Origin: Pseudomonadota bacterium
GTDB lineage: Bacteria > Pseudomonadota > Gammaproteobacteria > Burkholderiales > Burkholderiaceae
Assembly: GCA_023441105.1 (NCBI GenBank)
Contig: JAEZQX010000438.1
Span: 1 to 64,000 of the forward strand
Length of the DNA stretch: 64,000 bases
Direction of reading: 5' to 3'
In this document: one piece after another, positions 3,046-62,725 of the stretch
How the letters are laid out: each line of letters opens with the position of its first letter
Numbering within the stretch: position 1 is the stretch's first letter
The notes under the pieces: model-generated
Seen by the model: only the letters and a program-made list of their open reading frames with translations
The model's database searches: none
What the model was told of the DNA's origin: nothing
Program-made: the position numbers and the translations under genes

Positions 3046-3065
3046 CGAACGCCGAAGTCGCGATA

Positions 3066-3083
3066 GCGGCCCCGCAGGGCCGC
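3066..3083. terminator. Hairpin between convergent genes
   Basis: Perfect 7-bp stem, GCGGCCC / GGGCCGC, around a CGCA loop in the 44-bp gap between the end of the GT39 gene and the end of the lipoprotein gene. There is no T-run on either side, so a terminator role is only suggested by stem strength and the convergent position. Confidence 0.4.
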
Positions 3084-3089
3084 GTCCGC

Positions 3090-6110: not shown

Positions 6111-6114
6111 CCTT

Positions 6115-6813: not shown

Positions 6814-6875
6814 CTCGCTTTCACGCCTTCGATGGCTGCATGGTAAATCCTAGGCACAGGGGTTGCTTGCGAGTT

Positions 6876-6890
6876 GGTCGCCAGGCGACC
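6876..6890. promoter_or_regulatory. 15-bp palindrome in a divergent promoter region
   Basis: GGTCGCC-A-GGCGACC, a perfect inverted repeat around one base, between the divergent response-regulator gene and the DUF2158-like gene. It could be an operator or an RNA hairpin. OmpR-type regulators usually bind direct repeats, so autoregulation through this site is not implied. Confidence 0.35.
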
Positions 6891-6939
6891 CTCATGGGCC
6901 GAGACGGCCTGTGGAGGCGGGCGAACCGGAGACCGCGAG

Positions 6940-7155
6940 ATGGGAGAAGGACTCAGCATCGGCGACCTCGTGCGGGTCAAGACGCATTCCGAGCCGATCA
7001 TGAAGGTCGTCGACATCGAGGCTGCCGACGATCGATCCGGGGCCGGAAACGTCGTCGATTGCGAATGGGAGGACCATGGCACCGATCCCCCGACCCGACG
7101 GAGCTTCCGCTTCGCCGCCGCCGACCTCGTGCCGGTCTTGCAGCGGCCCGGCTGA
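6940..7155 (+). CDS. DUF2158 (YodC-like) small protein
   Basis: A 71-residue cytoplasmic protein with the pattern of the DUF2158 family: an N-terminal GDLVRVKTHSEPIMKV strand pair, a central C-x-W segment (VDCEWED) and FAAADLVPV near the end. ATG at 6940 is preceded by a purine-rich CGGAGA. Family members are small beta-rich proteins of unknown function. Confidence 0.65.
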   Translation: MGEGLSIGDLVRVKTHSEPIMKVVDIEAADDRSGAGNVVDCEWEDHGTDPPTRRSFRFAAADLVPVLQRPG

Positions 7156-7197
7156 TCCGGACCCGGCGTTCGACCCGACCAGAAAAAGGAAAGCAGC

Positions 7198-7476
7198 ATG
7201 TCGCGTTGGATCTTGCGGGCAGCGATCCTCTTTTCCTGCCTGGCCCTCCTGAGCGTTGCGGGGCTGTTGCTCGCCAGCGTGGAAGTCGCCAAGGATGGAG
7301 TGCCGGTAGTCCTGTCTTCGCTGGCATTGGCTGCGCTCGCCATCTTCGCGATCCTGCTTGCCATAGGGACGTGGTGGAAGTGGCGCAAGTCGGCAGGGCC
7401 GGGCTCGCGGGCCGGTGGCGACCCGATGCGGGCGAGAACGGCCGAAGAGATCGCCGGCGACCGTCAAAGCCTCTGA
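7198..7476 (+). CDS. Small two-TM membrane protein, unknown function
   Basis: A 92-residue protein with hydrophobic segments at about 5-27 and 37-60, then a basic cytoplasmic tail (WWKWRKS). AAGGAAAG lies a few bases before the ATG. Its 3' end overlaps the convergent HupE-like gene by 13 bp. No family recognised. Confidence 0.5.
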   Translation: MSRWILRAAILFSCLALLSVAGLLLASVEVAKDGVPVVLSSLALAALAIFAILLAIGTWWKWRKSAGPGSRAGGDPMRARTAEEIAGDRQSL

Positions 7477-8621
7477 ACCACCAATACGACACTGGTGGCG
7501 AGGATCAGCGCCGATAGCGCTTGCGGCAGCGAACTGCCCGGCCGCACGCCGCGCAGCCAGGCCAGCGCCGGGACCAGCAGCAGGACGACCAGCAACTGGC
7601 CGATCTCGATGCCGACGTTGAACCATAGCAACGACGACAGCAGCGCGTCGTGAGGCAGGCCGATGTCGCGCAGGACGTTGGCGAAGCCGAAGCCATGGAT
7701 GAGCCCGAAGGCGAATGCCACTGCCCAGCGGCGCGACATCGGCTTCACGCGGGCGAGGTTCTCAGCCGCAACCCAGCCGATCGACAGCGCAATCAGCGCC
7801 TCGACCGGCGCCGCCGGAACGCTCACCAGCTCGAGCGCTGCCGCACCGAGCGTGAGGCTGTGCGCGATCGTGAAGGCGGTCACGATGCGCACCAGGTTGC
7901 CGAGGCTGCCGCCGGGCAACACCAGCGCGAGCAGGAACAGCAAGTGGTCCCAGCCTTCGAGGATGTGCTGGATCCCGAGCGGCAGGAAACCGAAGGCGCC
8001 GGTCGGCGCATCGTCGGTGGCCGTGGCGGTCGGAGCGTTTCGGGCGGTCGGGGCGGTGGCGGACGGCGACCGGCCATCAGTCGCGATCGACGCCGCCGCC
8101 TGGAGATCGAACGAGGCGGAGCGACGTTCGTCGGCGAGCAGCACCGGCTGGGCCAGCGGTCGCTCCTGGCCCGCCACTTGCAACTGCATCAGGACATGGG
8201 AGCCCTGCCCGACGAAGTCGAATGAATCGTCCGTCACGTTGAGCACCCTGATCGGCGCCGGGCAGCGGAACTCGATGTGATAGGTGGTGCTGAGGCGCGG
8301 CGGCACCGGCGGCACGAAGTCGGCGGCGCCGGGGAGGCAGCGATGACCATCCGCCTCAATGCGCAGGTGCCGCGCCAGCATGCCGGTCATCCGGGCCGGA
8401 TCGCCTGCGGCGGCGCCCGCCGGTCCACCCAGTGGGCTGCCTGGCGGGAGCGGCTGGCTGGCGGTCGTCAGGGAGTACTCCAGCCGCGTGTCGTCCACCG
8501 TGAGGGCGGCAAACGAGGTAGGGGCGCCGTCATGCGCCTGGGCCGGGCCGGTTGCCAGCACGATCAGCACCGCGGCAATCGACCGCGCGAGCGCGTACGC
8601 CGCCGCACGCGGGCCGTTCAT
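7464..8621 (-). CDS. HupE/UreJ-type membrane protein (long form)
   Basis: A 385-residue protein. A signal peptide ends near ATGPAQAH; an extracytoplasmic domain runs to about 205, with a low-complexity Thr/Ala stretch near 190. The C-terminal six-helix HupE/UreJ_2 domain carries GIQHILEGWDHLLFLLAL, FTIAHSLTLG, LIHGFGFA and FNVGIEIGQ. The family is associated with nickel/cobalt or other metal handling, though long forms are not well characterised. The start at 8621 forms an ATGA overlap with the preceding gene, making it the last gene of the operon that begins at 13198. A second, short-form HupE-like domain occurs at 13419. Confidence 0.82.
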   Translation of the reverse strand: MNGPRAAAYALARSIAAVLIVLATGPAQAHDGAPTSFAALTVDDTRLEYSLTTASQPLPPGSPLGGPAGAAAGDPARMTGMLARHLRIEADGHRCLPGAADFVPPVPPRLSTTYHIEFRCPAPIRVLNVTDDSFDFVGQGSHVLMQLQVAGQERPLAQPVLLADERRSASFDLQAAASIATDGRSPSATAPTARNAPTATATDDAPTGAFGFLPLGIQHILEGWDHLLFLLALVLPGGSLGNLVRIVTAFTIAHSLTLGAAALELVSVPAAPVEALIALSIGWVAAENLARVKPMSRRWAVAFAFGLIHGFGFANVLRDIGLPHDALLSSLLWFNVGIEIGQLLVVLLLVPALAWLRGVRPGSSLPQALSALILATSVVLVVQRL

Positions 8622-9235
8622 GGCGACGCGAAGTCGGCGACGGCGCTCCATTCGCTGCCGACGAATCGCGAGATCAGGTAGATCCCGTCGTGCCCATCCG
8701 CGGACAGGTACTGCGCCGTCCCTTCGGGAGTATCGCCGCCGAAGCGGACGGCGATCAGCGGGCCCTGTTTGCCGTGCAGGATGGCGCTGACCGCCGGTCG
8801 CTCCAGGCCGAAGGCGGCAGGCGTCATGCCGACCAGCTCCTTCTGCGACAGGTGGCGCAGCGGTGCCGACGTGTTCAGGAACTGCACTGCCAGTGACAGG
8901 TGACGGCCTGCCTCAGGCGTCACCTTGCCACCGCCTTCACGAATCCAGCTGCCGCCGTCGCGTACGAAGACGCTGCGCCGTCCGGCACGCAGCACCTCGA
9001 CTTGCAGTACCGCTTCCGGCGGCTCCCGCATGAGCCCGCGCGCCTCGAATTCCACCAGCTGCCGCTGGCGCGGCAAGGCGCCGGTCACGACCATGACGAT
9101 CAGGTAGGCGAGGGCGAGCAACGCCAGCAGACTGGCCTGCCATCGGCGACCGAGGACACGGCGGTGACCGGTCGCGGCGAGCGGAGCAGGGCCTGCCACC
9201 GGCGGCGCATCGGCGCGGGCCGCGGATCCGCTCAT
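8618..9235 (-). CDS. DUF4340-like single-pass membrane protein of the Gld-type ABC operon
   Basis: A 205-residue protein with one TM segment near 32-52 and a soluble C-terminal domain (QKELVGMTPAAFGLERP, then DGIYLISRFVGSEW) of the kind seen in DUF4340 proteins that accompany GldF/GldG-like ABC genes. Start 9235 overlaps the stop of the GldG-like gene (ATGA), and its stop overlaps the start of the HupE-like gene, implying translational coupling on both sides. Function unknown. Confidence 0.6.
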   Translation of the reverse strand: MSGSAARADAPPVAGPAPLAATGHRRVLGRRWQASLLALLALAYLIVMVVTGALPRQRQLVEFEARGLMREPPEAVLQVEVLRAGRRSVFVRDGGSWIREGGGKVTPEAGRHLSLAVQFLNTSAPLRHLSQKELVGMTPAAFGLERPAVSAILHGKQGPLIAVRFGGDTPEGTAQYLSADGHDGIYLISRFVGSEWSAVADFASP

Positions 9236-10782
9236 CGTCGCCGCCACCAGGTCAGCAGGCCACCGGCAACCGCCAGCAACGGCAGCGCGACCACGATCAG
9301 CAGGAACACCGCTTTCATCTGCGCGTTCGACAGCACGATCATCGGCGGGACGGGAATGCGGGTCGGCACCGTCGTCAGCCGCTCCTCCCGCAGCAACCAG
9401 CGCGTCATTGCCAGGGCGAGGTCGCTGTTGGCCAGGTAGGGCAGGAACGAATTGCTCGCGAAGTCGCTGTCGCCGACCACGATGGCGCGCATCGGGACGG
9501 AGTCCGGCGTCGCTTCGGCGAGGCGTCCCTCGATCGCCGCCGCCAGCAGTCGCGGACCGGTGGCAGCCGGCGCGGCGAGCTCCGGGTCCGGCTCCTCCGC
9601 CGACGGTGGCGGCGATCCCGCTCCCGGCACCGTCTCCACCGGGCGGACGTAGCTGTCGCGACTGCTCGAGAAGAGCGGGATGCGGGTCAAGCCCGCCGCC
9701 GGTGGTCTTTCGGCCAGCGGTCGGGCCCCGGGGAAGAAGCTCATCGACAGGTTGCGCGTGAGCGGACTCGAGGCGTAGCTCGTGACCGCAACCATCTCGG
9801 CGTCGGTTGCATAGTGGCTCAGCGGGTCGACCACCACCTGCGCGGGCAGGGCGAGGCCGAAACGCTCCAGCAGCCGGCCCATCTCGGGGTCCGGCACGAA
9901 GCCGAGGTCGAGAAGCGCAAGCAGCGCACCACCACCAGCCAGGAAGCGGCTGATCGCCAGCGATTCGGCGGGCAGGAACGTGGTGCGCGGGCCGGGAATC
10001 GCCAGCAGCCTGCAGGCGGCGGGCAGTTCCGGGCTGGTGGCCAGCGCCACCTTGCGGACCTCGTAGCCCTGCGCCTCGAGCGCGCGGCGCAGCCGGCCGA
10101 TCCCATGGCCCGTCGTCATCACCACGGCCGAGGAGGCGTCGTCGTGGCTGTGATCCGAGACGCTTTCCAGATGGGTGTGGAACTCGAAGTTGTCGATCGG
10201 CAGCTCGTTGTGTCCTTCCAGGAAGCAGACCGTTTGCAGGTCGGTGCGCAGCAGGCGCTGGATGCCGATCGCGATCTGGCGCTCGTCGGTGGTTTCGACC
10301 TGGACCCGGCGTCCGTCCGCCTCGAGCACAGCGGTGTTGGTCGCTCGCAGGCCGGCAGCCCTGGCTGCGGCGGGCTCGCGGTCCGGATCGATGACCCGCA
10401 ACTGCAGCCGCGGATTGCTGCGCGCCATCTGCTCGAGCACGGTGCGCAACCGCTGGCTGCTGGGATCCTGCGCGCGCAGGAAGTAGGTGAGTGCCACCGG
10501 ACGCTGGAGTTCCTCGACGACCTTCAGCGCCTGTCCCGACGGCGTGTAGGTCTTCTCGCGGGTCAGGTCGATGTGAACGTCATGCAGCACGATGGCCACG
10601 TTGGCCAGCACCGCGACGCCGATGGCGACGAGGATCACGCCGAGCTGGTAGAGCAGGTTGGTCGCGCGGCCCCAGCGGCTCTGCAGCGGCAGCCGCCATC
10701 CGACTGCGAGCAGGATGCCGACGGCGAGCAGCCAGCCGACGAACCATGAAAGGGCAGCGACGTCGAGCGGTCCGTGCTCCAA
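9232..10782 (-). CDS. GldG-like ABC transporter auxiliary protein
   Basis: A 516-residue protein of the GldG/ABC-type uncharacterised transport group: two N-terminal TM segments (about 11-30 and 42-65), a large extracytoplasmic domain and a C-terminal TM helix (VFLLIVVALPLLAVAGGLLTW region) ending in WWRRR. VDIDLTREKTYTPS-like text (HIDLTREKTYTPSGQ near 71-85) is typical of the family. The start is TTG at 10782 with a strong TAGGAGG eight bases upstream. It is flanked by the permease and the DUF4340-like gene, as in other Gld-type clusters. In Bacteroidetes GldAFG supports gliding; here it is more probably a general export or envelope ABC system. Confidence 0.8.
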   Translation of the reverse strand: MEHGPLDVAALSWFVGWLLAVGILLAVGWRLPLQSRWGRATNLLYQLGVILVAIGVAVLANVAIVLHDVHIDLTREKTYTPSGQALKVVEELQRPVALTYFLRAQDPSSQRLRTVLEQMARSNPRLQLRVIDPDREPAAARAAGLRATNTAVLEADGRRVQVETTDERQIAIGIQRLLRTDLQTVCFLEGHNELPIDNFEFHTHLESVSDHSHDDASSAVVMTTGHGIGRLRRALEAQGYEVRKVALATSPELPAACRLLAIPGPRTTFLPAESLAISRFLAGGGALLALLDLGFVPDPEMGRLLERFGLALPAQVVVDPLSHYATDAEMVAVTSYASSPLTRNLSMSFFPGARPLAERPPAAGLTRIPLFSSSRDSYVRPVETVPGAGSPPPSAEEPDPELAAPAATGPRLLAAAIEGRLAEATPDSVPMRAIVVGDSDFASNSFLPYLANSDLALAMTRWLLREERLTTVPTRIPVPPMIVLSNAQMKAVFLLIVVALPLLAVAGGLLTWWRRR

Positions 10783-10794
10783 GGCTGCAGCCTC

Positions 10795-11496
10795 CTAGCG
10801 GCGTGCCAGCGAACGCACGGCCACGAACAAGGCAAGCGCCGTCACCGTGACGAAGAAGCCGAAGTCCGAGGCGTACATTGCGCCGGTGGCAAACGGGGTG
10901 AAGCGCGCCAGCAGGGACAGGCTGATGAAGACGCGCTCCAGCCCGGTGGGCAGGAGCTGCGCCAGCGAATCCAGCGTCCACAGCAGGAAGGAGGCGCCGA
11001 TCGCAAGTATGGCCGCCACCACCTGGTTCGACGTCATCGCCGAGAACATGATGCCGATCGCCACCAGCGTCGCGCCGAGCAGCGCGAGCCCGAGATAGCC
11101 GCCGTAGATCGCGCCCCAGTCGGGCAGGCCGAACCAGCCGAGCACCGCGGCGTAGGCGCCGGTGGCGGCGATCATGACGAGCACGGCCGCCAGGCTGGCG
11201 ACGAATTTGGCGAGCACCAGCTGGCCTTCGCGCACCGGCGCGGTCAGCAGCAACTCGAGGGTGCCCTGCTTGCGTTCCTCGGCGAAGCTGCGCATGGTGA
11301 TGATCGGCACCAGCAACAGCAGCAGGCCGGCTGCCTGGAAGAAGATGTGCACCAGGCTGGCGGCGCTGGTCGCAAAGAGCGTCAAGGTGAACGAGTAGCC
11401 CATCAGGAAGAGAAACACGGCGATCAGGGCCCAGGCGATCGGCGAAAGGAACAGGGCGCGCAGCTCCTTGTCGACGAGCACGGCGAACGATCTCAC
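10795..11496 (-). CDS. ABC-2 type permease (GldF-like)
   Basis: A 233-residue inner-membrane subunit with six hydrophobic segments and the ABC-2 signature MRSFAEERKQGTLELLLTAP after TM2. GTG start at 11496 overlaps the TGA of the ATPase gene (GTGA), so the two are coupled. It pairs with the ATPase at 11493 and the GldG-like protein downstream. Confidence 0.85.
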   Translation of the reverse strand: MRSFAVLVDKELRALFLSPIAWALIAVFLFLMGYSFTLTLFATSAASLVHIFFQAAGLLLLLVPIITMRSFAEERKQGTLELLLTAPVREGQLVLAKFVASLAAVLVMIAATGAYAAVLGWFGLPDWGAIYGGYLGLALLGATLVAIGIMFSAMTSNQVVAAILAIGASFLLWTLDSLAQLLPTGLERVFISLSLLARFTPFATGAMYASDFGFFVTVTALALFVAVRSLARR

Positions 11497-12347
11497 GCGT
11501 GCCTCGCCGCAGCCCCGGACGGCTGCTCGTCCGTCGTCAGCTGCAGGAAGACCTGCTCGAGCCCGCCCGGCGGCAGGCCGGCGAGCGACAGCACGTCGAG
11601 CAGGCGTCCGTCCAGCAGGATGGCCGCGCGATCGGCGACCCGTTCGATCTCGGCAAGGACGTGCGAGCTGACGAGGATGGCAACCTCGCCGGCGAGCAGG
11701 CGGATGGTCTCGCGCAGCTCGATGATCTGGCGCGGATCGAGCCCGTTGGTCGGTTCATCGAGCAGCAGCAGGGCGGGCCGGCCGAGCAGTGCCTGCGCGA
11801 TGGCGACCCGTTGCCGGAAGCCGCGCGACAACTTGCCGATCAGCGTCGACTGCACCCGCTGCAGCGACAATCGTTCGACGACCTCTTCCACGGCGCGCGC
11901 GAGCGCCGGGCGTGCCAGCCCGCGCACCCTGCCCATGAAGAACAGGAACTCCTGCGTTCGCATTGCCGTGTACAGCGGCACGTCTTCAGGGACATAGCCG
12001 ATGCGGCGACGTGCCTCGAGGCCTTCCTGCACCACGTCGAATCCCGCCACCCGGATCTGCCCGGCGCTCGGACGAAGGTAGCCGGCGATCATCCTCAGGA
12101 TGGTGCTCTTGCCCGAACCGTTCGGCCCGAGCAGCCCGACGACCTCGTTGCGGGCGAGCACCAGGTCGAACGACTCGACGACCCGCCGCCCGCCGAACGC
12201 CTTGCCCAGGCCGCTCGCAACGAGGATCGGTATTTCCGGCTGGCTCAGTCGTAGTACTCCGGCGCCTTCTTCATCGCCTTGAATGCATCCGGATCGTGGG
12301 CGGTGAAGAAGTCCGCCTTCTCGGTGGCCATCATGGTGCGAATCCAT
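11493..12347 (-). CDS. ABC transporter ATP-binding protein (GldA-like)
   Basis: A nucleotide-binding subunit with Walker A GPNGSGKST, a Q-loop region (VPEDVPLYTAM), the signature LSRGFRQRV in place of LSGGQ, Walker B LLLLDEPTNGLDP and the H-loop SSHV. The start is uncertain. The only ATG/GTG/TTG upstream of the domain is at 12347, which overlaps the metallo-beta-lactamase gene by 103 bp. A CTG at 12248 overlapping that gene's TGA would give a protein beginning just before the ABC domain and may be the true start. Forms an export complex with the downstream permease and GldG-like protein. Confidence 0.85.
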   Translation of the reverse strand: MDSHHDGHREGGLLHRPRSGCIQGDEEGAGVLRLSQPEIPILVASGLGKAFGGRRVVESFDLVLARNEVVGLLGPNGSGKSTILRMIAGYLRPSAGQIRVAGFDVVQEGLEARRRIGYVPEDVPLYTAMRTQEFLFFMGRVRGLARPALARAVEEVVERLSLQRVQSTLIGKLSRGFRQRVAIAQALLGRPALLLLDEPTNGLDPRQIIELRETIRLLAGEVAILVSSHVLAEIERVADRAAILLDGRLLDVLSLAGLPPGGLEQVFLQLTTDEQPSGAAARHA

Positions 12348-39071: not shown

Positions 39072-42000
39072 TCATTGTCCTGGTGAGGGTCCAGTCGATG
39101 TGGGGCCGGAAGAGCTGCCATCGTCTGCCTCGAGCCGGAGAAAATGAGCACAGCCGAGCGCATCGCCGGCAACGATCAGGCGCCCGTCGGCGCTCGCAGC
39201 AGCGCCCGTCACGACGGAATCGCATTCGAAGGCGGCAACTGGCGCCAGGGAAGGGTAGTGCCAGACCTTGACGTGGCGGTCATAGCCCGAAGTGACGACA
39301 AGCCCCGCGGGTTCCAGCAGTTGGATACTGCGCACGCGGCCCGCATGCGCCGCCAGGCTGGCGAGCATCCTGCATCCGGGGAAGCTCCAGATGCGCAGCG
39401 TGCCGTCTCCCCCGCCGGTCAGGAGCAGTCGTGAGTCCTGTGACAGCGTGCCGGAGGTGACGCCCTCGTTGTGTGCGGGAAGGCTTCGGAAGCATTTCGG
39501 CCGGCCGGGATCCCAGATGCTGAGCGTTCCGTCCGAGGAGCCGGTGATGGCGACTTGTCCGTGTGCGCTGACAGCGGCAAAGGTCACTGCTCGCCGATGG
39601 GCTTCCCAGCGTCGCTCGATGCGCGCGCGGTCGATGTCCCAAACCTGGGCGAAGCCATCCTGGGTACCGACGAACGTCTTGCCGGTCGCAGGAGCGATGG
39701 CGAGCGCACTGATGGCCCCGCTGGCACCCGAGAGAACCTGTGGCCGCTCGGTCTGCAACTCTCGAACATGGATCTTGCCGTCCCGCGAACCGGACACCAG
39801 GAGCTTGCGGCGCCAATCCAGAGCGATGGCGCTCACGACGTCTCGATGCCCCGCCAGCTCGTGGACGACCTCCCCCTTGCCTGGATTCCATACCCGCAGC
39901 ACGCCATCCTGGCCGGACGTCACTGCGACCGAGCCGTCCGGCGCCATCGCCACCGCATGAATCCAGCCTTCGTGCTCTTGCGTCGGCGCCCGAACCTCCC
40001 CGGCGTCCAGGCTCCATAGCCGAACGGTGCGGTCTTGTCCGCCGGAGAAGGCGGAGCGCCCGCCGGGAGGCAGTGCAAGGGCGTTGACCGAGTCCGCGTG
40101 TCCCTGCAGGATGCGATGTGGCTTGCCTGATTCCAGGTCCCAGACCCGCACCGTTCGATCGTGTGAGCCGGACAGGGCGAATCGGCCGTCCGGCGAGAAA
40201 GCCACCGCGTAGACCCGATGTGTGTGGCCGCTGAGGGTGAAGCGGATGGCGGCCCCACCCCGGTCCGGGTTCAGTTCCCACAGGCGGACGTTCGCGTCGG
40301 CGGCACCGGTGAGCGCCAGTCGTCCGTCGAAGGAGAGGGCGACGCAATAGATGACGCCTTCGTTGCTGGCATAGAGGGTTTCGATGAGGTCGCCGGTGTC
40401 CAGGTTCCACAGGCGGGCCGCCTTGTCGTAGCCGCCGGAGAGACCGGTACGACCATCTGCGGTGATCGCAACCGATGCGATCGCGGATCGATGGCCGCGG
40501 AGGGAGGGTAATGGTTCCCAGGAATCCGTTTGCCAGGCGTGAAGTGTTCCTTTCCGCGAGCCGACAAGCAGCCGGCTGGCGTCTGCGGCGACTGCCAGGG
40601 CAATCACGCCGCCGGGAATCTTCAGCTTGATGCAGGGTGCGGATCCGGAGCGGGGATCCCAGACTGCCAGACCGCGCGACCCGCCGAGCGCCAGGCACTC
40701 TCCGGGCATCGCGGCGAGAAATGCAGCTGCTCCCACGGGTGGCGCAGCCGCCGGATCGTCCGTCGCCGCTGCCGTTGATGGGGAGAAGACCTGCAGCTTC
40801 GTGCCTTCGGCGATATCCCACACGGCAAGCTTGCCATCGTCCGTCGTGGCGAAGATGCGATTGCCGCGATCGGACACTACCAGCGAGGACACTGCGCCAG
40901 GCATGTCGAGGGTGCGCACCAGCGGTCCGCCGGGTCCGCTCAAGCTCGGTAGCAGCGGTCGCAGCCATGGTTTGCGTCCAGCCGCCTGTTGCTGCAGGCT
41001 GGCCCGCAAGGAGAGCGCAGTCGTCGGCAAGCGTGCCAGGAGCTGGGCGACGAGCTGGGAAGGATCATGTGCGAGCGCGTGCGAGGCGACCTGCAGGGCA
41101 GCGGCAAGCAGGGCGGCGTCCGTGCCGGGTGAGACGTGCCGGAAGTCCTCCAGGAGGGCATAGATCCCGCATCGGTCGAGCTTTGCCTCGAGCCACGAGA
41201 CGTCGCCCAGTAGCGCGTCGACATCCTCTTGGCGGCCGGCGCCCAGGAGGTGCCGGACGACCCAGCGCCAGGCGAAAGCATGTGGCAGGCGGTGCTTGTC
41301 CCCCCAGGTGGCAAGCAGCGTCTCATGCGCCGATTGGCCGGCGCCCGGAAGACGCGTGGCGAAGTAGGCGAGCACGACGTCGTGGACCTGCACAAGCCCC
41401 AGCTTGAGGTCGAAGTCCACCAGCGACGAGTTGTCCAGGCGTGACAGCGTCTCCTCGGTATCGAAGGCGTCGAGTCCCCAGAGTTCGCCGGCAACATCGA
41501 TCGGCACATCCTCGTCCTCCGGAAAGATGGCGAGGCGGATACAACGGTCGCGGTCGTCCGCGGCGAGCTGTTCGAGTCCGAGGTCGATGGTGGACGCCAC
41601 CGCGCCGCGACGATCGCCGGCGTTCTCCCGGTCGAAGGCAACCACGCCTCGGCGATCGAGCGCCTTTCCGACGTATGCCAATGCACCGGCCAAGGTGTCG
41701 CCGCGTTCGATGCGCTGGCGCAGGGCACCGGCCGCTAGCTTGAGCAGGAGCGGCCATTCTCCGAGGCGGTGAGCGAGTTGCCTGAAGGGATCGAGCGAGG
41801 CGGGCTTTTGCGGAAGCCGTGCGATGAGCAGCGCCACCGCTTCCCCAGCTGTCATTTCGTCGACTTCGACACGCTCCGCCTCGGCCGCGACCGCGGCCTG
41901 GCGCGTGGTGACCAGGCGGGCGCAGCCCGACCCACCGCGGCAGAACGGGCCGAGGTCGGCGGGGTTCCAGACGTCGTCGATGACGATCAGGCAGTTGCGG

Positions 42001-42755
42001 TTCTGGAGCTTGTCACCGAGAGCCTGCGCCGCGTCCTCGACGCTCACGAAGGCGGGTCGCTCCCCCGTAAGCGCCGCGTAGAGGCGAGTCAGCTCACCCT
42101 GCAGGTTGGGTGACTGGCCAAGGGTGGCCCACAAGATGCCGTCGTCGAACGCCGTCAGAACGTCGTCGTCGTGCGCCATCGCGGCGGCCAGGGTCGTCTT
42201 GCCGAATCCTCCGGCGCCCGTCAAAGCCGTGGTGATCGCAATGGCATCGTGCTTGTCCTGCGTGAGCAGCAGGCGCTTGAGCGTCCCGAGTTCCTGCGCC
42301 CGGTTGATGAAGTCATTGGGCAGCGGAGGCGCCATGAATGGCACCCGTACCGGCGTTGCCCCGCGGCGCAGATGCGCGACGAACTGCTCCCACTGGACGT
42401 CCAGGTCATACCAGTGCAGCTTGCTCATCCACCGCGGTACTTCAGCGCTGGCGGGATCCAGTCCAGGTCCCTTGATCGGAAATACCGCTACCCCGCTCTG
42501 TCGCGCAGCGCGCCATTCCAGGCGAGTCACTGCCGACCGGAGGACGGCCGGCGTCATCACGACCACGAGGAACTCGACGCGCTCGAGTGCATCCTCGATC
42601 TGCCGCCACCAACCGAGGCCCCCTTCGATCTCCGGACGGTCCTGCCAAACCGGGATTTCGGGCGCACCCCGCGCCAGCCTGGCCCGCAGGTTGTCGGCAA
42701 AGCCTTGCCCGTCACTCCGGGCGTAGGAGATGAAGATCCCCGACTTGGCAGCCAT
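39072..42755 (-). CDS. TIR - NB-ARC - WD40 (14 repeats) STAND NTPase
   Basis: A 1227-residue cytoplasmic protein with the architecture of a nucleotide-sensing receptor. The N-terminal TIR domain (about 5-130) has IFISYARSDGQGFADNL and E80 in RLEW, the position of the catalytic Glu of NAD-cleaving TIRs. The NB-ARC STAND NTPase spans about 150-480, with P-loop GAGGFGKTT (180-188), Walker B CLIVIDDVW (255-263), a sensor LVTTRQ and VHD (457-459), equivalent to the MHD motif. A helical region follows, then 14 WD40-like repeats (about 620-1215), enough for two seven-bladed propellers. Bacterial proteins of this class can act in anti-phage defence by depleting NAD on ligand recognition. The ATG at 42755 begins the domain; an upstream GTG at 42782 is possible. 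Confidence 0.9.
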   Translation of the reverse strand: MAAKSGIFISYARSDGQGFADNLRARLARGAPEIPVWQDRPEIEGGLGWWRQIEDALERVEFLVVVMTPAVLRSAVTRLEWRAARQSGVAVFPIKGPGLDPASAEVPRWMSKLHWYDLDVQWEQFVAHLRRGATPVRVPFMAPPLPNDFINRAQELGTLKRLLLTQDKHDAIAITTALTGAGGFGKTTLAAAMAHDDDVLTAFDDGILWATLGQSPNLQGELTRLYAALTGERPAFVSVEDAAQALGDKLQNRNCLIVIDDVWNPADLGPFCRGGSGCARLVTTRQAAVAAEAERVEVDEMTAGEAVALLIARLPQKPASLDPFRQLAHRLGEWPLLLKLAAGALRQRIERGDTLAGALAYVGKALDRRGVVAFDRENAGDRRGAVASTIDLGLEQLAADDRDRCIRLAIFPEDEDVPIDVAGELWGLDAFDTEETLSRLDNSSLVDFDLKLGLVQVHDVVLAYFATRLPGAGQSAHETLLATWGDKHRLPHAFAWRWVVRHLLGAGRQEDVDALLGDVSWLEAKLDRCGIYALLEDFRHVSPGTDAALLAAALQVASHALAHDPSQLVAQLLARLPTTALSLRASLQQQAAGRKPWLRPLLPSLSGPGGPLVRTLDMPGAVSSLVVSDRGNRIFATTDDGKLAVWDIAEGTKLQVFSPSTAAATDDPAAAPPVGAAAFLAAMPGECLALGGSRGLAVWDPRSGSAPCIKLKIPGGVIALAVAADASRLLVGSRKGTLHAWQTDSWEPLPSLRGHRSAIASVAITADGRTGLSGGYDKAARLWNLDTGDLIETLYASNEGVIYCVALSFDGRLALTGAADANVRLWELNPDRGGAAIRFTLSGHTHRVYAVAFSPDGRFALSGSHDRTVRVWDLESGKPHRILQGHADSVNALALPPGGRSAFSGGQDRTVRLWSLDAGEVRAPTQEHEGWIHAVAMAPDGSVAVTSGQDGVLRVWNPGKGEVVHELAGHRDVVSAIALDWRRKLLVSGSRDGKIHVRELQTERPQVLSGASGAISALAIAPATGKTFVGTQDGFAQVWDIDRARIERRWEAHRRAVTFAAVSAHGQVAITGSSDGTLSIWDPGRPKCFRSLPAHNEGVTSGTLSQDSRLLLTGGGDGTLRIWSFPGCRMLASLAAHAGRVRSIQLLEPAGLVVTSGYDRHVKVWHYPSLAPVAAFECDSVVTGAAASADGRLIVAGDALGCAHFLRLEADDGSSSGPTSTGPSPGQ

Positions 42756-56137: not shown

Positions 56138-57397
56138 GTGGGCAAGCGATTCTTGGTCAAGAAGGCAGCGGACGCATTCACTTGTCCGCCGGATAAGGAC
56201 CAGGCGTTCCTTTGGTGTACGGAACCGCGGGGGTTCGGGCTTAGATGCACCCGGGGCGGCTTCAAGAGCTTCGTGCTGGCGGGAACCTTTGAGAGAAAGG
56301 AGCGTCGGATCACGCTCGGCGCCTATGGCGATCTCACGATCGCAGCAGCCAGGGCGATAGCCTACGAACGACGGCTGGAGCTGCTGGCCGGTAAGGATCG
56401 GCAGGTGGAGAAGAGGCGGGCTGAGGTCCTGCAGGTTACGCTTCGAACCGTCTCCGAGCGATACATCGCGGAGCGGCGCACGGCGCATGGACCTTTGCGA
56501 CCTGCCACCAAACGGGACATCGCGCGGCACGTGACGAAGACCTTTGCTGACTGGGCCGACAAGCCGATCAACTCAATAACCCGAGATCTTTGCGTCGAAA
56601 GGTTCGACGAGATTTCCAAGAATTCGCCTTACGCAGCGAATCAAGCCATGCGATACCTAGCTGCTCTGTGCTCCTAGGCGCGTGAGGAGTACTCGGACGG
56701 GGAGGGCTACCCCCTCCTCGAGCAGAATCCGGTGTCGCGGCTCTTCCGGATACGGCGAAGGAACCTTGAGCGACCACGTACCAAGCGGATCCCCTTAGAC
56801 AAGGTCGGGGAGGTCTGGCGGATGCTCGAACTCCGGCAGGCGGTCGGTCGCACGGTTGAGGAACGGACTTCGGCAGCGTTCGTCCTGTTCCTGATCGCCA
56901 CCGGAGCTAGGCGCTCGGAAGCCGGTCAGCTGAAGTGGGAAGACGTGCATCTCAAGGAGGGCTGGTTCGAGTTTCCAGCGACGGTTACCAAGACCCACGT
57001 GTCTCATCGGCTGCCGATCACGCCTTTACTGAAGCAACTCCTCGAATCACTCCCGAGACGGGAGTCGAACCCGTACTGCTTCGCGTCCTCCGGGGTAAAG
57101 CATCGCTATATCACTCTACCGAGGGCCGCGATGAAGGCTGTAAGCAAGATCGCCGGCATCGCACTTAGTCCTCATGATTTAAGACGAACGGCCGACTCGA
57201 TTGCGAAGGAGGCGGGTGTTGATGCTGACGATCGACGCGCGATCCTCGCCCACGCTGCCTCCGACATCCATAGCAAGCATTACGGGAACGACGTGACTCC
57301 CAAGGCGCTGGCGAAGGCAGTCGAGACCATGCACGCGTGGATCGTCACTCAAGTCTGCTCGTTGGCGGATCAAGTGAACCTTAGGGAAGCGGTGTAG
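56138..57397 (+). pseudogene. Tyrosine integrase interrupted by an in-frame amber codon
   Basis: The 420-codon frame is intact except for a single TAG at 56675-56677 (codon 180) after AMRYLAALCS; the same frame continues AREEYSDGEG. The N-terminal half holds a DUF4102-like arm-binding/SAM region (TLGAYGDLTIAAARA). The catalytic half, from about 56732, has Arg in IATGARRSEAGQL, Lys in TKTHVSHRLPI, H-x-x-R in SPHDLRRT, His in ILAHAAS and Tyr in SKHYGND. It is adjacent to the tRNA-Phe remnant. The amber may be a nonsense mutation of a Trp, Tyr or Gln codon, or a sequencing error; a suppressible codon is possible. Confidence 0.85.
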
Positions 57398-57424
57398 GGT
57401 AAAACCGGGGTGGTAGTGGCGTGC

Positions 57425-57630
57425 GCGGCTATGGTACGCTGTGGTTAACCAGCGGGTCGTAACCCCGCGGGCCGTGTGATCCGCAGCACGCTCATGAGGC
57501 GCAGGCGGGAACGTTAGCCGGTCGGAGCAAGGGTGAGAATCCCCCAGGACCCGGACTCCCATGCGGGTGACCATCCGCAGGACCGATGCGCAAGCATCGG
57601 ATACCTGTGCTTGGCTCACCCGTTTTGCTA
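57425..57630 (+). ncRNA. Structured RNA between integrase and AlpA-like gene (int-alpA type)
   Basis: A non-coding stretch with several compatible stems. GCGGG 57452-57456 pairs with CCCGC 57464-57468; TGCGG 57562-57566 with CCGCA 57575-57579; CCGATGC 57583-57589 with GCATCGG 57594-57600 over a GCAA tetraloop; and a long-range GGGTGAG 57531-57537 with CTCACCC 57615-57621 enclosing the last two. Position, length and structure fit the int-alpA RNA motif reported by comparative genomics between integrase and alpA genes. A match to its covariance model has not been made here. Confidence 0.65.
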
Positions 57631-57663
57631 TCTACGTGGTGAGCGATCAATAAGGCGCGCACC

Positions 57664-57879
57664 ATGTCTATCTCCGATCTACCCAAGTTTCTGACGACGG
57701 ATCAGGCAGCTGAACTGCTAACCGTCAGCCCCTCTACGCTTGAGGTTTGGCGCTACCGAGGAACCGGTCCACGATTCGTCAAGATCGGCCGGAGCGTCCG
57801 CTATCGGCAATCAGACCTTGCGGCGTTCATCGACGAACGGGCTCGGGTTAGTCAGCAAGAATCGGCTGTCGCTCGATGA
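57664..57879 (+). CDS. AlpA-like helix-turn-helix excisionase/regulator
   Basis: A 71-residue MerR/HTH_17-type DNA-binding protein: FLTTDQAAELLTVSPSTLEVW is the helix-turn-helix and YRGTGPRFVKIGRSVRYRQSDL the wing. AlpA and excisionase proteins of this kind direct integrase activity and early transcription of P4-like elements. Confidence 0.8.
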   Translation: MSISDLPKFLTTDQAAELLTVSPSTLEVWRYRGTGPRFVKIGRSVRYRQSDLAAFIDERARVSQQESAVAR

Positions 57880-58034
57880 GCAGAGGATCATCCCGTCCGC
57901 GGCCCCCGACCTGCGGGCCTAGCAAGGCTGTGCTTCTCCGTCCGTATCGGCTCTCCATGTCGGTCGGCTGTCGGATCGAGGGTGGCCGGACAGGCCATCC
58001 CTCAACCAACGTATAAGCTCACCACGCTGCGATC

Positions 58035-60104
58035 GTGGCAGCCAGCGGTGTCGACGTGAGCCAGGTTCCGAACGTTGCGCCAGGGCGCTGGAATCCAGAG
58101 CTGTGGGTCAACATCCCATCGGAGCTCAAGGCACTGCCGCAGTGGTGTCTGGCTCTAGAAAGTGGAGCACCCGCATACTTAGGAGGCGACGACAAACTGT
58201 ACCCTGCTTCCGTAAGCGACCCGTCCACTTGGACCTCCTTTGAGAAGGCCTCCGCCGCAGGAGCTCGACTCGGCCTCCACATCGGCTTTGTCCTGGCTGC
58301 AGGCACGTGCCTATCGTGCATTGATCTTGACGTTGTCGACGAGGACTCGCAGCGCCGGAAGGGTCAGCCAATAGACCCGGCCAGATGGACCAATCAGAAG
58401 GACTTCGAGAGGTTTAACCGAATCCTTGACAGCTTCGACAGTTACACAGAGTGGTCGAGGAATGGCAAGGGGGTCCATGTTTGGGCTCGGGGAGAGATCG
58501 GGGAGGGTAAAAGACGTGATCACGTTGAGCTTTACTCCCAACAGCGGTTCATCATCTGTACTGGCGCAACATTCCATCCGGTCCCAAAGCCGATCGCAGC
58601 ACGGCAGGACCTACTTGACATCCTCTGGGGCGAGTTGCATCGCGGATCATCGGAACTCGTCAAGCATCACGACGATCCCACTGGCGACCCGTGGTGGTAC
58701 ATCGGGCAGCAGGCGCTTGACGAAGAAGGCCATCCGAAGAACAACGAATTCGGCCGTCTTTTTGCTGGGAAGTGGCAAGGCCGACACTACGCATCGCAGT
58801 CAGAAGCGGACCTTGCGCTCGTCAAGATGCTTTGCAGACTCAGCACCTCAGATGAGCAGGTATGGGCTGCATTCAAGGTGTCCATGCTCGGTCGACGCAC
58901 GAAAGCAGACAGACCGGACTACAGGCTTTCCACACTTCGACTTGCTCGGACACACCTTGCGAACGATGAGGTCTTGGCCGCGCATGGTCGACAAGTCACG
59001 GAGAGCTTACTGCAGATGCCGCTGACGCAGCCCACGTGTACGGCCAGTCAACGGTCAATCGCCATCCTATCTGATGACGAGTTGCAGAACCTACCGGCAC
59101 AGCGTTGGATCGTGAAGGGGATCGTTCCTGAAACCGGCGTCGGCGCCATCTATGGCGCTTCCGGAACCTATAAGTCGTTCCTGGCGCTCGACATGCTGGC
59201 ACACGTTGGCAACGGCGTTGCTTGGTTCGGGAACCGAGTCCGCCTTGCCCATGCGCTCTACCTTCCGTTCGAAGGTCAGGGCGGAATACCGAAGCGAGTT
59301 GCCGCCTGGCGGCAGATCAAGTCGCAGCAGTCGGGGCATCTGGTCTCAGCTCGGGTGGGATTCGTGATGGACCGCCTGAACTTACGAGACCAGACGGACC
59401 GCGACCGACTGGTTGCTTCCTTGAGGGAGAGGGGCTGGGCGGGAGGCTTGATATGCATAGACACTCTCGCTCAAGCCGGGCAAGGAATCGAGGAGAACAG
59501 CAGTGCTATGGGGGAGATGATCGGCATCTTCGAAGAACTCAAGCTCCGGCTGAACTGCGCGGTGCTCATCATTCACCATGCGGGCAAGGATCTTGGCAGG
59601 GGCATGCGAGGCTGGTCGGGACTACATGCTGCAATGGACTTCGTCATTGAGGTAGAGCCGAGGGGGAAGGGGGCGGTGAACTCGAAATTCGTCCTCACCA
59701 AAGTCAAGGATGGGCAGGACGGCCGTGCATTCGAGTTCAGCACAACGCCCGTCGATCTGGGTGTAGACGAGGACGGGGACCGGATAACATCTCTTACGGT
59801 CTCCCCGCCCGTGCAGATCGACATTGGCGGGCTGATGGGTGATGAGCAGGAAGACAGTGCCAGGCAGGAGGCGCGCGACGCCGAGGATGACGAGTTTGTT
59901 TGGAGGTGGATCAAGGAACAAGTGGAAGCAGGCGGGTACCCCACAGGTCGTTCGCTCGAGGGCCAGCGGGAACAGATGAGGAGGCTTCGCACCTTAACTC
60001 AGAAGCAGCTTCGTGATTCCATCAATAGGCTAAAAGCCGCGAGCCGAGTAGTTGAGAGTGAGGAGAAGGCGCCTTCGGGTAACAAGTGGCTTGAGGCGAA
60101 GTAG
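58035..60104 (+). CDS. Primase-polymerase / RepA-like helicase fusion
   Basis: A 689-residue replication protein. The N-terminal archaeo-eukaryotic primase/polymerase domain has the acidic CIDLD (95-99), the S-x-H-like KGVHVW (145-150) and ELYSQQRFIICTG (165-177). The AAA/RecA-like RepA helicase has P-loop GASGTYKS (374-381), Walker B LICIDTL and IIHHAGKDLG. A C-terminal winged-helix segment (TLTQKQLRDSINRLKAA) probably contacts the origin. GTG start. Iteron-like repeats follow directly, as expected for an autonomous replication module. Confidence 0.85.
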   Translation: MAASGVDVSQVPNVAPGRWNPELWVNIPSELKALPQWCLALESGAPAYLGGDDKLYPASVSDPSTWTSFEKASAAGARLGLHIGFVLAAGTCLSCIDLDVVDEDSQRRKGQPIDPARWTNQKDFERFNRILDSFDSYTEWSRNGKGVHVWARGEIGEGKRRDHVELYSQQRFIICTGATFHPVPKPIAARQDLLDILWGELHRGSSELVKHHDDPTGDPWWYIGQQALDEEGHPKNNEFGRLFAGKWQGRHYASQSEADLALVKMLCRLSTSDEQVWAAFKVSMLGRRTKADRPDYRLSTLRLARTHLANDEVLAAHGRQVTESLLQMPLTQPTCTASQRSIAILSDDELQNLPAQRWIVKGIVPETGVGAIYGASGTYKSFLALDMLAHVGNGVAWFGNRVRLAHALYLPFEGQGGIPKRVAAWRQIKSQQSGHLVSARVGFVMDRLNLRDQTDRDRLVASLRERGWAGGLICIDTLAQAGQGIEENSSAMGEMIGIFEELKLRLNCAVLIIHHAGKDLGRGMRGWSGLHAAMDFVIEVEPRGKGAVNSKFVLTKVKDGQDGRAFEFSTTPVDLGVDEDGDRITSLTVSPPVQIDIGGLMGDEQEDSARQEARDAEDDEFVWRWIKEQVEAGGYPTGRSLEGQREQMRRLRTLTQKQLRDSINRLKAASRVVESEEKAPSGNKWLEAK

Positions 60105-60132
60105 GACGGTAGGACGGCAGGACCGCAGGACG
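60101..60132. repeat. Four 8-bp tandem repeats
   Basis: GTAGGACG, GTAGGACG, GCAGGACC and GCAGGACG in a row, the first covering the stop codon of the primase gene. Part of the repeat-rich, origin-like region. Confidence 0.8.
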
Positions 60133-60160
60133 GACAGGTCCCCGCCACAGGCCCATGGGC

Positions 60161-60291
60161 GCGTTGGGGGTGCGTTAACACATCGACGCACATACGAACG
60201 CCCAGGGCTGCAAACGCACCCCCTAGTGGGTGCGTTGCCTGCGTTAGCCCTATAGGTAACGCGCCTCCCTAACGCACCTCTGCAACGCACC
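60161..60291. repeat. Iteron-like octamer cluster, candidate replication origin
   Basis: The octamer GGTGCGTT or its complement AACGCACC occurs five times: 60169, 60213 (complement), 60229, 60271 (complement) and 60284 (complement), with an AACGCGCC variant at 60258. The copies at 60213-60221 and 60228-60236 form a perfect 9-bp inverted repeat AACGCACCC...GGGTGCGTT. The cluster lies 65 bp after the primase-helicase gene, where element origins of this kind are found. Confidence 0.65.
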
Positions 60292-60786
60292 TGCTGCCTC
60301 ATGGTTCCGTTGGCTTCACCGGGAGCTCATTGTGGTTTCGCAATCCCCTCGTGTCGATCCACGGCTCCGTTGCCTCAGCGCGTCAGCATCCGCCCAGGAT
60401 AGTCCCTCAGCGTGGAGGCGGGGAGGCGAAGTTGAACATTCGTTAGATTGTTCGATGCAAATCGGCTTGCGGCTGCGCTCAGCAAACTGAACCCTGGATT
60501 TTCCAAGGCCAGTGGGCAATCATTTCCTGCGAGAGCCCTGCAGTCACTCAAGCCCCGCGCGGTTAGTGGGCGCTCAGACCTGCGCGTGATAGCAGCGATA
60601 TATGGATCGGCCTTCCTGGAACGATGTCGATGTTGATCAGTGGGAGCGTCTGCTAGGCCGCCCAGCGGCCTGAGCGTTCGATGACTACGTTCTGGCTGGG
60701 CGGATCCGGTGACGACAGTCAGCGATTGACTCACCAGAGCCCGACATGCTTGGAGTCTCGAGACGCTCATGAAAGGGGAGGCGGCG
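60292..60786. other. Gene-free stretch right of the repeat cluster
   Basis: 495 bp with no convincing reading frame, RNA or terminator; may contain the rest of the origin and the promoter of the next gene. Confidence 0.4.
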
Positions 60787-61374
60787 ATGCCCGATGCAGA
60801 CAAATGGAACGAATCCCAGGATCCTGATTTTGCTAACTGGAAGCGCATCAGGTTGGCGGTTGAGCATGAGAACCTGCTTCTTAACTCGCGAATGACTTGG
60901 CTATTGTCCGCTCAGGCGTTTCTGCTGGCCGCATATGTATTAGTCTTCACAGCCACGGCAAGGCTCGACTTCACCCCAGGCAGGGTGGTTGAGGCTAACT
61001 TCCTGTTGTATGCGCTTACCGCGTTGGGAATATTTGCTAGCGGCTATCTATCCTTGGGACTTAAGGCGGCTTACGATCAGCACTACGAGTTAGTCGAGTG
61101 GTGGAGCCGCAATCGGCTTAATCCGGATCGTCACCCTCCAATCTGCGGAGCGGAGCCTAGGGCATTCTTTTTAGTGTATGTGCCGTACTACGTGTTCGGC
61201 CTTTCGTTCGTCCTGATTTGGGTGGCCCTCGCATTTGTTCCGCGCGCTCAGCACGCCGAGAGCTACCGACGGTTTGTTGAAGCTATCGTGCAGCAGTATG
61301 GAGTACTAGCTCTAGTAGTTCTCGCGCTGATCGTCATTGCTTTCTTTGTAGGGCGCGTAGGAAGGAAGACATGA
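60787..61374 (+). CDS. Multi-TM membrane protein of unknown function
   Basis: A 195-residue protein from ATG 60787, preceded by GGGGAGG at six bases; ATG 60769 is less favoured. The N-terminal helix is charged (WKRIRLAVEHENLLLNSRMT), then about four TM segments (near 37-57, 75-95, 127-150 and 172-192). The LAVEHENLLLNSRMTWLL text resembles a family of small membrane proteins common in mobile and defence-rich islands, but I cannot name it. Codon use is less GC-rich than the chromosome. Confidence 0.65.
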   Translation: MPDADKWNESQDPDFANWKRIRLAVEHENLLLNSRMTWLLSAQAFLLAAYVLVFTATARLDFTPGRVVEANFLLYALTALGIFASGYLSLGLKAAYDQHYELVEWWSRNRLNPDRHPPICGAEPRAFFLVYVPYYVFGLSFVLIWVALAFVPRAQHAESYRRFVEAIVQQYGVLALVVLALIVIAFFVGRVGRKT

Positions 61375-61892
61375 GCGCAAAAGGTGGTCGAGTCTAGCTG
61401 CATAGGCTTTCGCTCCACAGGCCGAAAATTCCCTCTGCTCGGCTTGACGGTAGCTAGGCAATTGCGTTCGCTAGGTTTCAGGTCTATTTGTGCGGCGGTG
61501 GTTCGGAGTTTTTTCGGCAAGGCTTGCCGGGGCCTTGGAACGCATCTCGCGGGGCCCGACCTCTTCGCCTCTGCTGGTCCGTGCGGTCCCTACGGCTTGT
61601 TAGTTCGTACTCGGACCCCCACGGAGCCACTTGTTTCGCCCCCTTCTCTTATGCCGCCAGTTGCCTCATGTCATGTGGGTTGAGCGCCCCCGAAGGATCG
61701 ACGCTCCTCTGGGCGATGGGGCAAGGTGCTGATTTCGCTGGCCCTGACGCATAGGGGAAGGCTACTGTAACCACAGCGTCCGCAACGTGTTTGGCAGCCG
61801 GGGCTTGTCTGGAGGGCGACACCTAGGACGTCACCACTGACCCGGGAAAGGCGGGCCAGAGATTGCAACTAGTTTGCTGAGAGCAAGAAGTT
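61375..61892. other. Gene-free stretch in the element
   Basis: 518 bp with only weak open frames, none coding-like. A perfect 15-bp palindrome CGGCAAG-G-CTTGCCG at 61515-61529 has its T-run on the left side only, so it does not act as a rightward terminator. Confidence 0.4.
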
Positions 61893-62333
61893 ATGACCTC
61901 ACCCGATCGATCTCCCCGTCCTCCAGGCAACCCCAACTGGTCAAAAGGAATGATCAGCCCGAACCCCGCGGGCAGGCCTGTGGGCCTCCTGGACCGTCGG
62001 CAGAAGCTGAACAAGGCCCTCCTTGACAGCGCCAGCGAGATCGCCCAGCTGGTGGTCGACAAGGCCCTCGAGGGTGACATGCATGCCGCTTCCATTGTCC
62101 TGGCGCGGGTCGCACCAGCCCTGAAGCCCCAGGCGGAACGGGTCCAGTTCGATCTCGACGCCAGCGCACCCCTGACTGATCAGGCAGAGGCTGTGGTCCA
62201 GGCAATCGCAAGCGGCGACCTGGCTGCCGATACGGCGAAGATGATCATCGATGCCATCGCGGCTCTAGGTGCAATCCGGCAACTCGACGAGATGGAGCAA
62301 CGACTGCAAAAACTTGAAAGGAGAGCAGCATGA
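61893..62333 (+). CDS. DUF5681-like mobile-element protein
   Basis: A 146-residue protein. PNWSKGMISPNPAGRPVGL near 14-32 resembles the DUF5681 (phage/element) N-terminal motif of KG-x-S-x-NPxGRP form; the rest is helical with a C-terminal coiled-coil stretch (DEMEQRLQKLERR). AAGAAG precedes the ATG. Such proteins are found in phage packaging and island contexts. Confidence 0.65.
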   Translation: MTSPDRSPRPPGNPNWSKGMISPNPAGRPVGLLDRRQKLNKALLDSASEIAQLVVDKALEGDMHAASIVLARVAPALKPQAERVQFDLDASAPLTDQAEAVVQAIASGDLAADTAKMIIDAIAALGAIRQLDEMEQRLQKLERRAA

Positions 62334-62725
62334 TGAAGACACAGGCGGCTGTGGACACAAGTCTCCTACGCTATTCCATGGCCCGTGAAGTGCCTGGAAG
62401 GGCACCGACCTACGTCAACCTCTTTCGGCCGCCGTGGGGGCTCTCCGTGACCCGCTCCGTGGACGAGCCAGTCGATGAGTTTTGGACTCGTGTGACGGAG
62501 GTCGCAGACGCCCTTCGAAGGGAAGTAGTTCGGGCGGGCCTACATCCTCCCCGAGAACCAATGTGGTTGACCGTCTTGTGCCACTACGAGGAGACCTCCG
62601 CCCCGGAATCTGACCTCTTGGAGGCATGCCGGCAGCCACTCAGGAAGCTGATCGGGTCGCCTTCACCATTCGAGGACTTGAAGATCCGGGCGGCAGTGGC
62701 GCTGGCGGCGCTGACAATGAAGTGA
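62330..62725 (+). CDS. Hypothetical element protein
   Basis: A 131-residue protein whose start overlaps the preceding stop (ATGATGA) and follows AAAGGAG at seven bases, so it is translationally coupled. No family recognised. C-terminal ALRRE...DLKIRAAVALAAL is helical. Confidence 0.55.
   Translation: MMKTQAAVDTSLLRYSMAREVPGRAPTYVNLFRPPWGLSVTRSVDEPVDEFWTRVTEVADALRREVVRAGLHPPREPMWLTVLCHYEETSAPESDLLEACRQPLRKLIGSPSPFEDLKIRAAVALAALTMK

Follow-up and report, generated by a model that had tools for sequence, protein, structure and literature searches.

Domain order and the Apaf-1-like core

The window analyzed here is a 64,000-nucleotide stretch of Burkholderiaceae DNA (assembly GCA_023441105.1, contig JAEZQX010000438.1, positions 1 to 64,000 of the forward strand). 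It contains a gene for a single large protein, referred to below as the query protein, in which a TIR domain precedes an NB-ARC switch core and two WD40 propellers. The gene clearly belongs to a large uncharacterized family with the chassis of Apaf-1. It is already known that TIR is fused to AP-ATPase in bacteria, as stated in the available part of PMC7159879. What is new is that in some relatives the same core carries another N-terminal enzyme, either DUF4062 or a trypsin-like protease. The features of the gene are as follows.

39072..42755, minus strand: whole gene, 1227 amino acids plus stop, a single open frame from ATG
42363..42737, minus strand: TIR domain, residues 7-131 (Pfam TIR_2 at residues 7-125, E 2.5e-17)
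42516..42518, minus strand: Glu80, candidate catalytic residue (family alignment and register with the Lys-Glu of SARM1)
42300..42362, minus strand: linker, residues 132-152, including RVPFMAP (137-143), the joint where the effector differs in closer relatives
41631..42299, minus strand: NB-ARC nucleotide-binding domain and first helical domain, residues 153-375 (PF00931, E 6.8e-16; fold), with inner borders placed by us from the model and alignment
42192..42218, minus strand: P-loop GAGGFGKTT, residues 180-188
41973..41993, minus strand: Walker B CLIVIDD, residues 255-261
41346..41630, minus strand: winged-helix domain, residues 376-470, with VHD (457-459) in place of MHD (alignment; fold)
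40956..41345, minus strand: second helical domain (APAF1_C), residues 471-600 (PF17908 below cut-off; fold alignment)
40011..40925, minus strand: WD40 propeller 1, residues 611-915, seven blades inferred (predicted model and alignments)
39123..39989, minus strand: WD40 propeller 2, residues 923-1211, seven blades inferred (predicted model and alignments)

A protein search in which 7997 candidates were scored returned 1008 homologues at E <= 1e-3, the nearest with 91% identity across the first 630 residues. The chosen ATG is supported by the homologues, many of which start at this Met or close to it. A promoter and terminator scan found neither.

The first-pass annotation of this DNA, made from the letters alone, had described a TIR, NB-ARC, and WD40 order with a candidate catalytic glutamate at residue 80 and the switch motifs. 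Pfam, the family alignment, and the predicted model confirm that order, and the motifs stand up to the alignment of 97 proteins, in which K186 of the P-loop, D260 and D261 of Walker B, and H458 of the VHD are invariant and D459 is kept in 92. An NB-ARC with a P-loop, Walker B, and an MHD-like motif, followed by two WD40 propellers, is the arrangement of an Apaf-1-like AP-ATPase. The structure prediction that the annotation had proposed gave an Apaf-1-like fold and a TIR fold. The domain order, conserved motifs, Apaf-1-like core, and two propellers are thus demonstrated by sequence or prediction.

Several comparisons connect the core to Apaf-1, the nearest solved protein by sequence. The PF17908 profile (APAF-1 helical domain) matched with E 1.6e-4 and 22.1 bits, just below its cut-off of 22.8, and is annotated (precomputed) in several of the homologues listed; the APAF-1-like winged-helix profile matched weakly (E 0.085, below cut-off). 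The fold alignment to Apaf-1 covers residues 82-618, including the second helical domain, and full-length murine Apaf-1 (3sfz) heads the VIA list of the fold comparison. Mean identity between the query protein and 23 relatives is highest in the nucleotide-binding domain (64%) and the TIR domain (62%), intermediate in the winged helix (49%) and the second helical domain (43%), and lowest in the propellers (37%), which are the most diverged part of the protein. Thus, the effector and the switch appear to be held while the presumed sensor drifts.

The TIR domain and its exchange for other enzymes

Glu80 is invariant in all 97 aligned family proteins and is present in 270 of 271 TIR-labeled proteins examined (267 of 268 distinct sequences; 3 of 274 were left out). 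A profile built from 18 family TIRs matched 41 PDB sequences at E <= 0.01. A tetratricopeptide repeat (TPR) protein (9m0n) headed the list. It was followed by a TIR protein (8qlo) and next by numerous SARM1 entries (E from 4e-6), with AbTIR, SPARTA TIR-APAZ, and TIR-SAVED among the further matches. Because these include known NADase TIRs, we count the result in favor of a receptor that cleaves NAD. The profile column of Glu80 aligns with the glutamate of the SARM1 Lys-Glu, which we take to be the catalytic Glu642. The arrangement found in TIR NADases, a TIR fold with the catalytic glutamate in register, is present here by fold and by alignment, respectively, and the domain is predicted to be an NAD-cleaving enzyme.

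Some animal TIRs act as scaffolds, and the TIR here might likewise do no more than hold oligomers together while TIR-TIR contacts recruit another enzyme. A glutamine in place of Glu80 in the first of two tandem copies in an Anaerolineae metagenome-assembled genome (MAG; L019) would fit such a role. We consider a pure scaffold very improbable, because the glutamate is retained in every other TIR-bearing protein examined and because relatives bear other complete enzyme domains at the same place. The two L019 TIR-NB-ARC genes (3537-7607 and 7608-11663) lie head to tail; the first also has an altered BB-loop region and the second keeps the glutamate, so dead and live copies adjoining one another might act as a pair.

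Many relatives match the query protein from about residue 126 onward and have a different N-terminus. Pfam scans of 20 non-TIR relatives (the N-terminus, or for P0224 the whole protein) found DUF4062 in seven of the first ten and in one of the next ten, together with a trypsin-like domain in two of the latter (L055 and P0224). Overall, 8 carried DUF4062, 2 were trypsin-like, 1 had a match below cut-off, and 9 had no match. Local profiles divided 314 core proteins into 274 with TIR, 16 with DUF4062, and 24 others (271, 15, and 24 distinct cores), a ratio that is not a census, as the proteins were collected by similarity to one TIR query and one DUF4062 query. The class of others takes in L008, whose TIR is in a different frame (tblastn match from residue 7), and truncated genes. 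According to the available part of a 2026 preprint (PMC13174449), DUF4062 is distantly similar to TIR and acts as a TIR-like NADase, and its bacterial forms act in abortive antiphage defense, one of them sensing the phage portal. The preprint also reports NADase activity for human TEP1, in which an NTPase is combined with WD40 repeats and an APAF-1-like helical domain. An S-x-[TV]-x-x-E motif is kept by all 16 DUF4062 N-termini in our set (15 distinct), its glutamate being a candidate residue only. The DUF4062 of L095, searched against PDB sequences, matched a TEP1 fragment no better than at a nonsignificant E of 0.59.

The cores beneath these different enzymes can be nearly identical. For example, core identity is 96.8% between L030 (DUF4062) and L016 (TIR), 94.8% between L037 (DUF4062) and P0079, 93.2% between L027 (DUF4062) and P0071, and 88.5% between P0224 (trypsin-like) and P0240 (TIR), falling to 76.9% between P0135 and P0214, also of different forms, and to 63% between P0121 (DUF4062) and P0123 (TIR). 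In six cross-form pairs, the identity per 20 columns upstream of the joint was 0-12, mostly 0-6, the value of 12 reflecting an N-terminal leader common to L037 and P0079. At the linker the three cyanobacterial pairs rose to 16-20, the P0224 pair to 13-20, the P0136 pair to 8-20, and the P0121 pair, over the stretch listed, to 8-16. A loose R-V-P-F pattern occurs in 257 of 271 TIR, 8 of 15 DUF4062, and 1 of 24 other distinct cores, which limits the fixed joint (RVPFM...DLP) to the exchanges nearest the query protein and does not extend it to the distant DUF4062 or actinobacterial forms.

On the core tree (122 rows; a 'quick' tree that leaves 45 of its 119 inner branches open), the DUF4062 label takes 8 changes, at least 7 of them forced by well-supported branches. 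A single origin of the DUF4062 form was rejected by the approximately unbiased (AU) test (log-likelihood lower by 376, p-AU 1.9e-64). The constraint grouped 12 of the 15 DUF4062 rows, without the three from actinobacteria, which makes the test milder. The genes of L030 and L016 extend past their contig ends, and it is possible that one single short contig is a chimera. Assembly chimeras were rejected as an explanation for the change of effector, given three separate MAGs with the cyanobacterial DUF4062 form (L027, L030, and L037) and the isolate cases. In the isolate Aquabacterium humicola the DUF4062 protein P0121 is encoded on a 366 kb contig, and its core has 63% identity to the TIR protein noted above, about 60% to P0127 (Piscinibacter sp. 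XHJ-5, 6.6 Mb contig), and 53% to the nearest other DUF4062 core. One cyanobacterial MAG (G011) carries both a TIR form and a DUF4062 form.

At the level of sequence, these comparisons show the enzyme to be a replaceable cassette: the core that bears the TIR here bears DUF4062 or a trypsin-like protease in relatives, with the RVPFM linker as the joint in the closer cases. That one switch is found with two NADase cassettes of distant similarity supports a suicide receptor that cleaves NAD and has a replaceable effector. NAD depletion gains support because the TIR is replaced in relatives by DUF4062, a reported NADase, and replacement of one NADase by another on an unchanged switch is the trace expected from selection for NAD cleavage as the output. 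The protease-bearing forms suggest that other outputs may also work on this chassis. Most actinobacterial relatives among L042-L080 have about 40-155 residues before NB-ARC (a few have more); of 11 such N-termini scanned, two matched over cut-off (DUF4062 and Trypsin_2), one under it, and eight not at all. These N-termini are candidate new effector or adaptor domains.

Propellers, surroundings and distribution

Mean internal blade identity in the query protein is 0.24, the 35th lowest of 249 (median 0.30, maximum 0.78), as estimated from the 10 of its 14 blades that the blade finder recovered. A sensor driven by a diversity-generating retroelement was considered and set aside on a search limited to tandem repeats in the gene and the available part of PMC10907252; the blades of the query protein are not homogenized. 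The DNA tandem-repeat search detected two short arrays in the gene and none in the WD40 part. Four relatives (L002, L006, P0054, and P0136) have near-identical blades, unlike the query protein, with mean internal identities of 0.67-0.78 that point to recent sensor homogenization in some lineages.

The ten flanking genes scanned encode LysR, TctC receptors, enolase-superfamily enzymes, TauD dioxygenases, and a short-chain dehydrogenase/reductase. Across 46 TIR loci, whose flanks were often short, neighbors recurring at least three times reflect vertical synteny in Nitrospirota or are clusters joined by common domains, one through PAS-like domains (by eye) and one through WD40 or TIR proteins. 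ADP-ribosylglycohydrolase (PF03747) occurs in 2 of 99 neighbor open reading frames (ORFs), possibly by chance; it would fit ADP-ribose chemistry. In L020, a large ORF (2313-5297) adjoining the TIR-NB-ARC relative has a TIR-like start (by eye) and clusters with WD40 proteins. Positions 56138-62725 of the window, about 13 kb from the gene, have a lower G+C content (0.58-0.62) and contain ORFs that resemble, by eye, those for an integrase, a primase-like protein, and small proteins of phage type; this is perhaps a prophage or other mobile element.

The distribution of the gene is patchy. At E <= 1e-60, and counting in each case the carrier genome that served as the center, relatives were found in 1 of 399 genomes of one order, 4 of 200 of one family, and 3 of 398 of one phylum. 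The first genome scan, with a single protein as query, confirmed no relative. Ten of 72,556 plasmid records match at E <= 1e-20, one of them a Rhizobium megaplasmid on which a 1215-residue NB-ARC protein, matching from the TIR on, lies between ordinary genes. A TIR-NB-ARC relative is also present in a Methanosarcinales archaeon MAG (L014).

Proposed mechanism and comparison with known systems

Our analysis indicates that the query protein is probably a one-gene, Apaf-1-like suicide receptor whose TIR would cleave NAD+ after ligand sensing. By analogy with Apaf-1, both propellers would fold back on the ADP-bound NB-ARC/winged-helix core in the resting state and hold it shut. The propellers might then bind a ligand; our guess is an invader protein, for example a phage structural protein. 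As in Apaf-1 and NOD-like receptors (NLRs), binding would allow the exchange of ADP for ATP and the assembly of a wheel of subunits. The TIR domains thus brought together would, like TIR and DUF4062 enzymes, cleave NAD+ via Glu80, and the infected cell would stop or die.

Several observations weigh against this proposal. The glutamine in the L019 copy is an exception to Glu80, albeit the sole one of 271. Most of the 24 other N-termini have no assigned effector, and with protease-bearing forms NAD cleavage would not be the sole output of the core. The 33 sequences of the group nearest the query protein show no hypervariability in the propellers, and each blade retains its own residues, which gives no sign of an arms race and suggests a constant ligand for that subgroup. 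The flanking genes are catabolic or regulatory, with neither a partner gene nor a defense island. The 99 neighbor ORFs (longest non-overlapping frames rather than curated genes) came from 25 loci, of which two were of the DUF4062 form. Counts on these ORFs, made without a control set, gave at most three occurrences for any Pfam family; 15 PADLOC models matched at E <= 1e-15, each in one or two ORFs. No relative was found in the phage records searched, and none was confirmed in a two-pattern scan of viral contigs.

The lack of a partner gene, already remarked on in the first-pass annotation, holds across the flanking genes, the 46 TIR loci, and the neighbor ORFs, and it bears on a second explanation. 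TIR NADases are capable of either NAD depletion or signaling, and the TIR might make a nucleotide such as cyclic or modified ADP-ribose for a protein encoded elsewhere, as in Thoeris, without depleting NAD+ itself. The TIR does match the NCBIfam model for Thoeris type III ThcB4 (NF058526), weakly, at 26.7 bits against a cut-off of 220, a score on which membership was rejected. Signaling is nevertheless unlikely, because no partner recurs beside the gene and because replacement by a protease or by DUF4062, with its reported products ADP-ribose and nicotinamide (PMC13174449, available part), suits direct execution better.

Apaf-1 senses cytochrome c, and the propellers here might similarly sense a host protein or metabolite in an endogenous stress or development switch, with regulated death or dormancy as its output and phage as one trigger or none. 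Blade-specific conservation in the closest group, the position of the gene among catabolic operons and next to a LysR gene, and the failure of phage records and viral contigs to yield a relative all fit such a switch. However, conflict systems commonly show this kind of rare, patchy occurrence with repeated changes of effector, a pattern unusual for housekeeping regulation, and we regard a stress switch as quite unlikely.

Extending the suicide-receptor proposal to the family as a whole is more tentative, at somewhat less than an even chance. Under this extension, the family would form apoptosome-like wheels in which TIR NADase, DUF4062 NADase, and trypsin-like cassettes are swapped by recombination at the linker, which would let hosts evade phage inhibitors of one effector, and the DUF4062 form would be the bacterial counterpart of the TEP1/NWD1 plan.

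Effector exchange is the surprising part of these results and lifts the family above one more NLR-like protein; relatives with a different enzyme on a near-identical switch are as expected of a modular self-destruct sensor. In this bacterial gene the chassis of Apaf-1 is joined to an effector predicted to cleave NAD, and among its relatives the effector changes on a nearly constant switch. An old question thereby becomes open to test, namely the origin of the Apaf-1 domain plan and whether it first acted through NAD cleavage or through proteolysis. Siblings with >90% identical cores and different enzymes are a natural experiment, as they should share a switch mechanism and differ in how they stop the cell. 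A literature search that covered few subscription papers and no supplements turned up neither functional work on any bacterial TIR-NB-ARC-WD40 protein nor an account of TIR/DUF4062/protease exchange on this core.

Apaf-1, the closest solved protein by sequence and fold, shares an NB-ARC switch and two propellers with the query protein. Apaf-1 differs in having an N-terminal CARD where the query protein has a TIR, and its propellers have 7+8 blades. The query protein, with 7+7 blades inferred and no caspase partner seen, is bacterial. The plant TIR-NB-ARC resistance proteins RPP1, Roq1, and WRR4A, all three present in the fold lists, have TIR followed by NB-ARC as in the query protein. A TIR-NBARC-WD40 protein of the red alga Chondrus crispus has, by its description in the available part of PMC9806590, the same three-part architecture in a eukaryote.

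Among prokaryotic proteins, the TIR-AP-ATPase conflict proteins of Kaur et al. (2020; PMC7159879) also carry an N-terminal TIR on an AP-ATPase (NB-ARC). The AP-ATPase effectors in the part of that paper available have TPRs and occur with peptide-processing and vWA ternary systems, whereas the query protein has two propellers and no recurring partner. Assignment as an FxSxx-COOH system TPR protein (NCBIfam NF040586, FxSxx_TPR) was rejected, as the match reached 91.8 bits against a cut-off of 300 and the sensor is WD40. NB-ARC/APAF1_C/WD40 proteins are known from cyanobacteria (PMC8891106, available part), and JGI annotation labels two listed relatives 'NB-ARC domain/TIR domain/WD domain'. Avs and bNACHT proteins (PMC10907252) have a STAND (signal transduction ATPase with numerous domains) NTPase, an N-terminal effector, and a C-terminal sensor in common with the query protein, whose NTPase is NB-ARC. 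The first-pass annotation had turned to Avs for comparison; Avs membership was rejected, as the closest solved relative is Apaf-1 and none of the eight PADLOC-DB families matching at E <= 1 is Avs. Its interpretation as a whole is partly supported.

The final comparison is with the DUF4062 NADases, as described in the part of PMC13174449 available. TEP1 and NWD1 have a TIR-like NADase domain N-terminal to the NTPase and an APAF-1-like helical domain, and WD40 is present in several DUF4062 proteins. Their NTPase is NACHT, whereas that of the query protein is NB-ARC. The Swarozyc protein studied has a helix-turn-helix/winged auxiliary domain, which also sets it apart. Relatives of the query gene carry the DUF4062 of the Swarozyc NADases at the N-terminus, where the query protein itself carries TIR_2.

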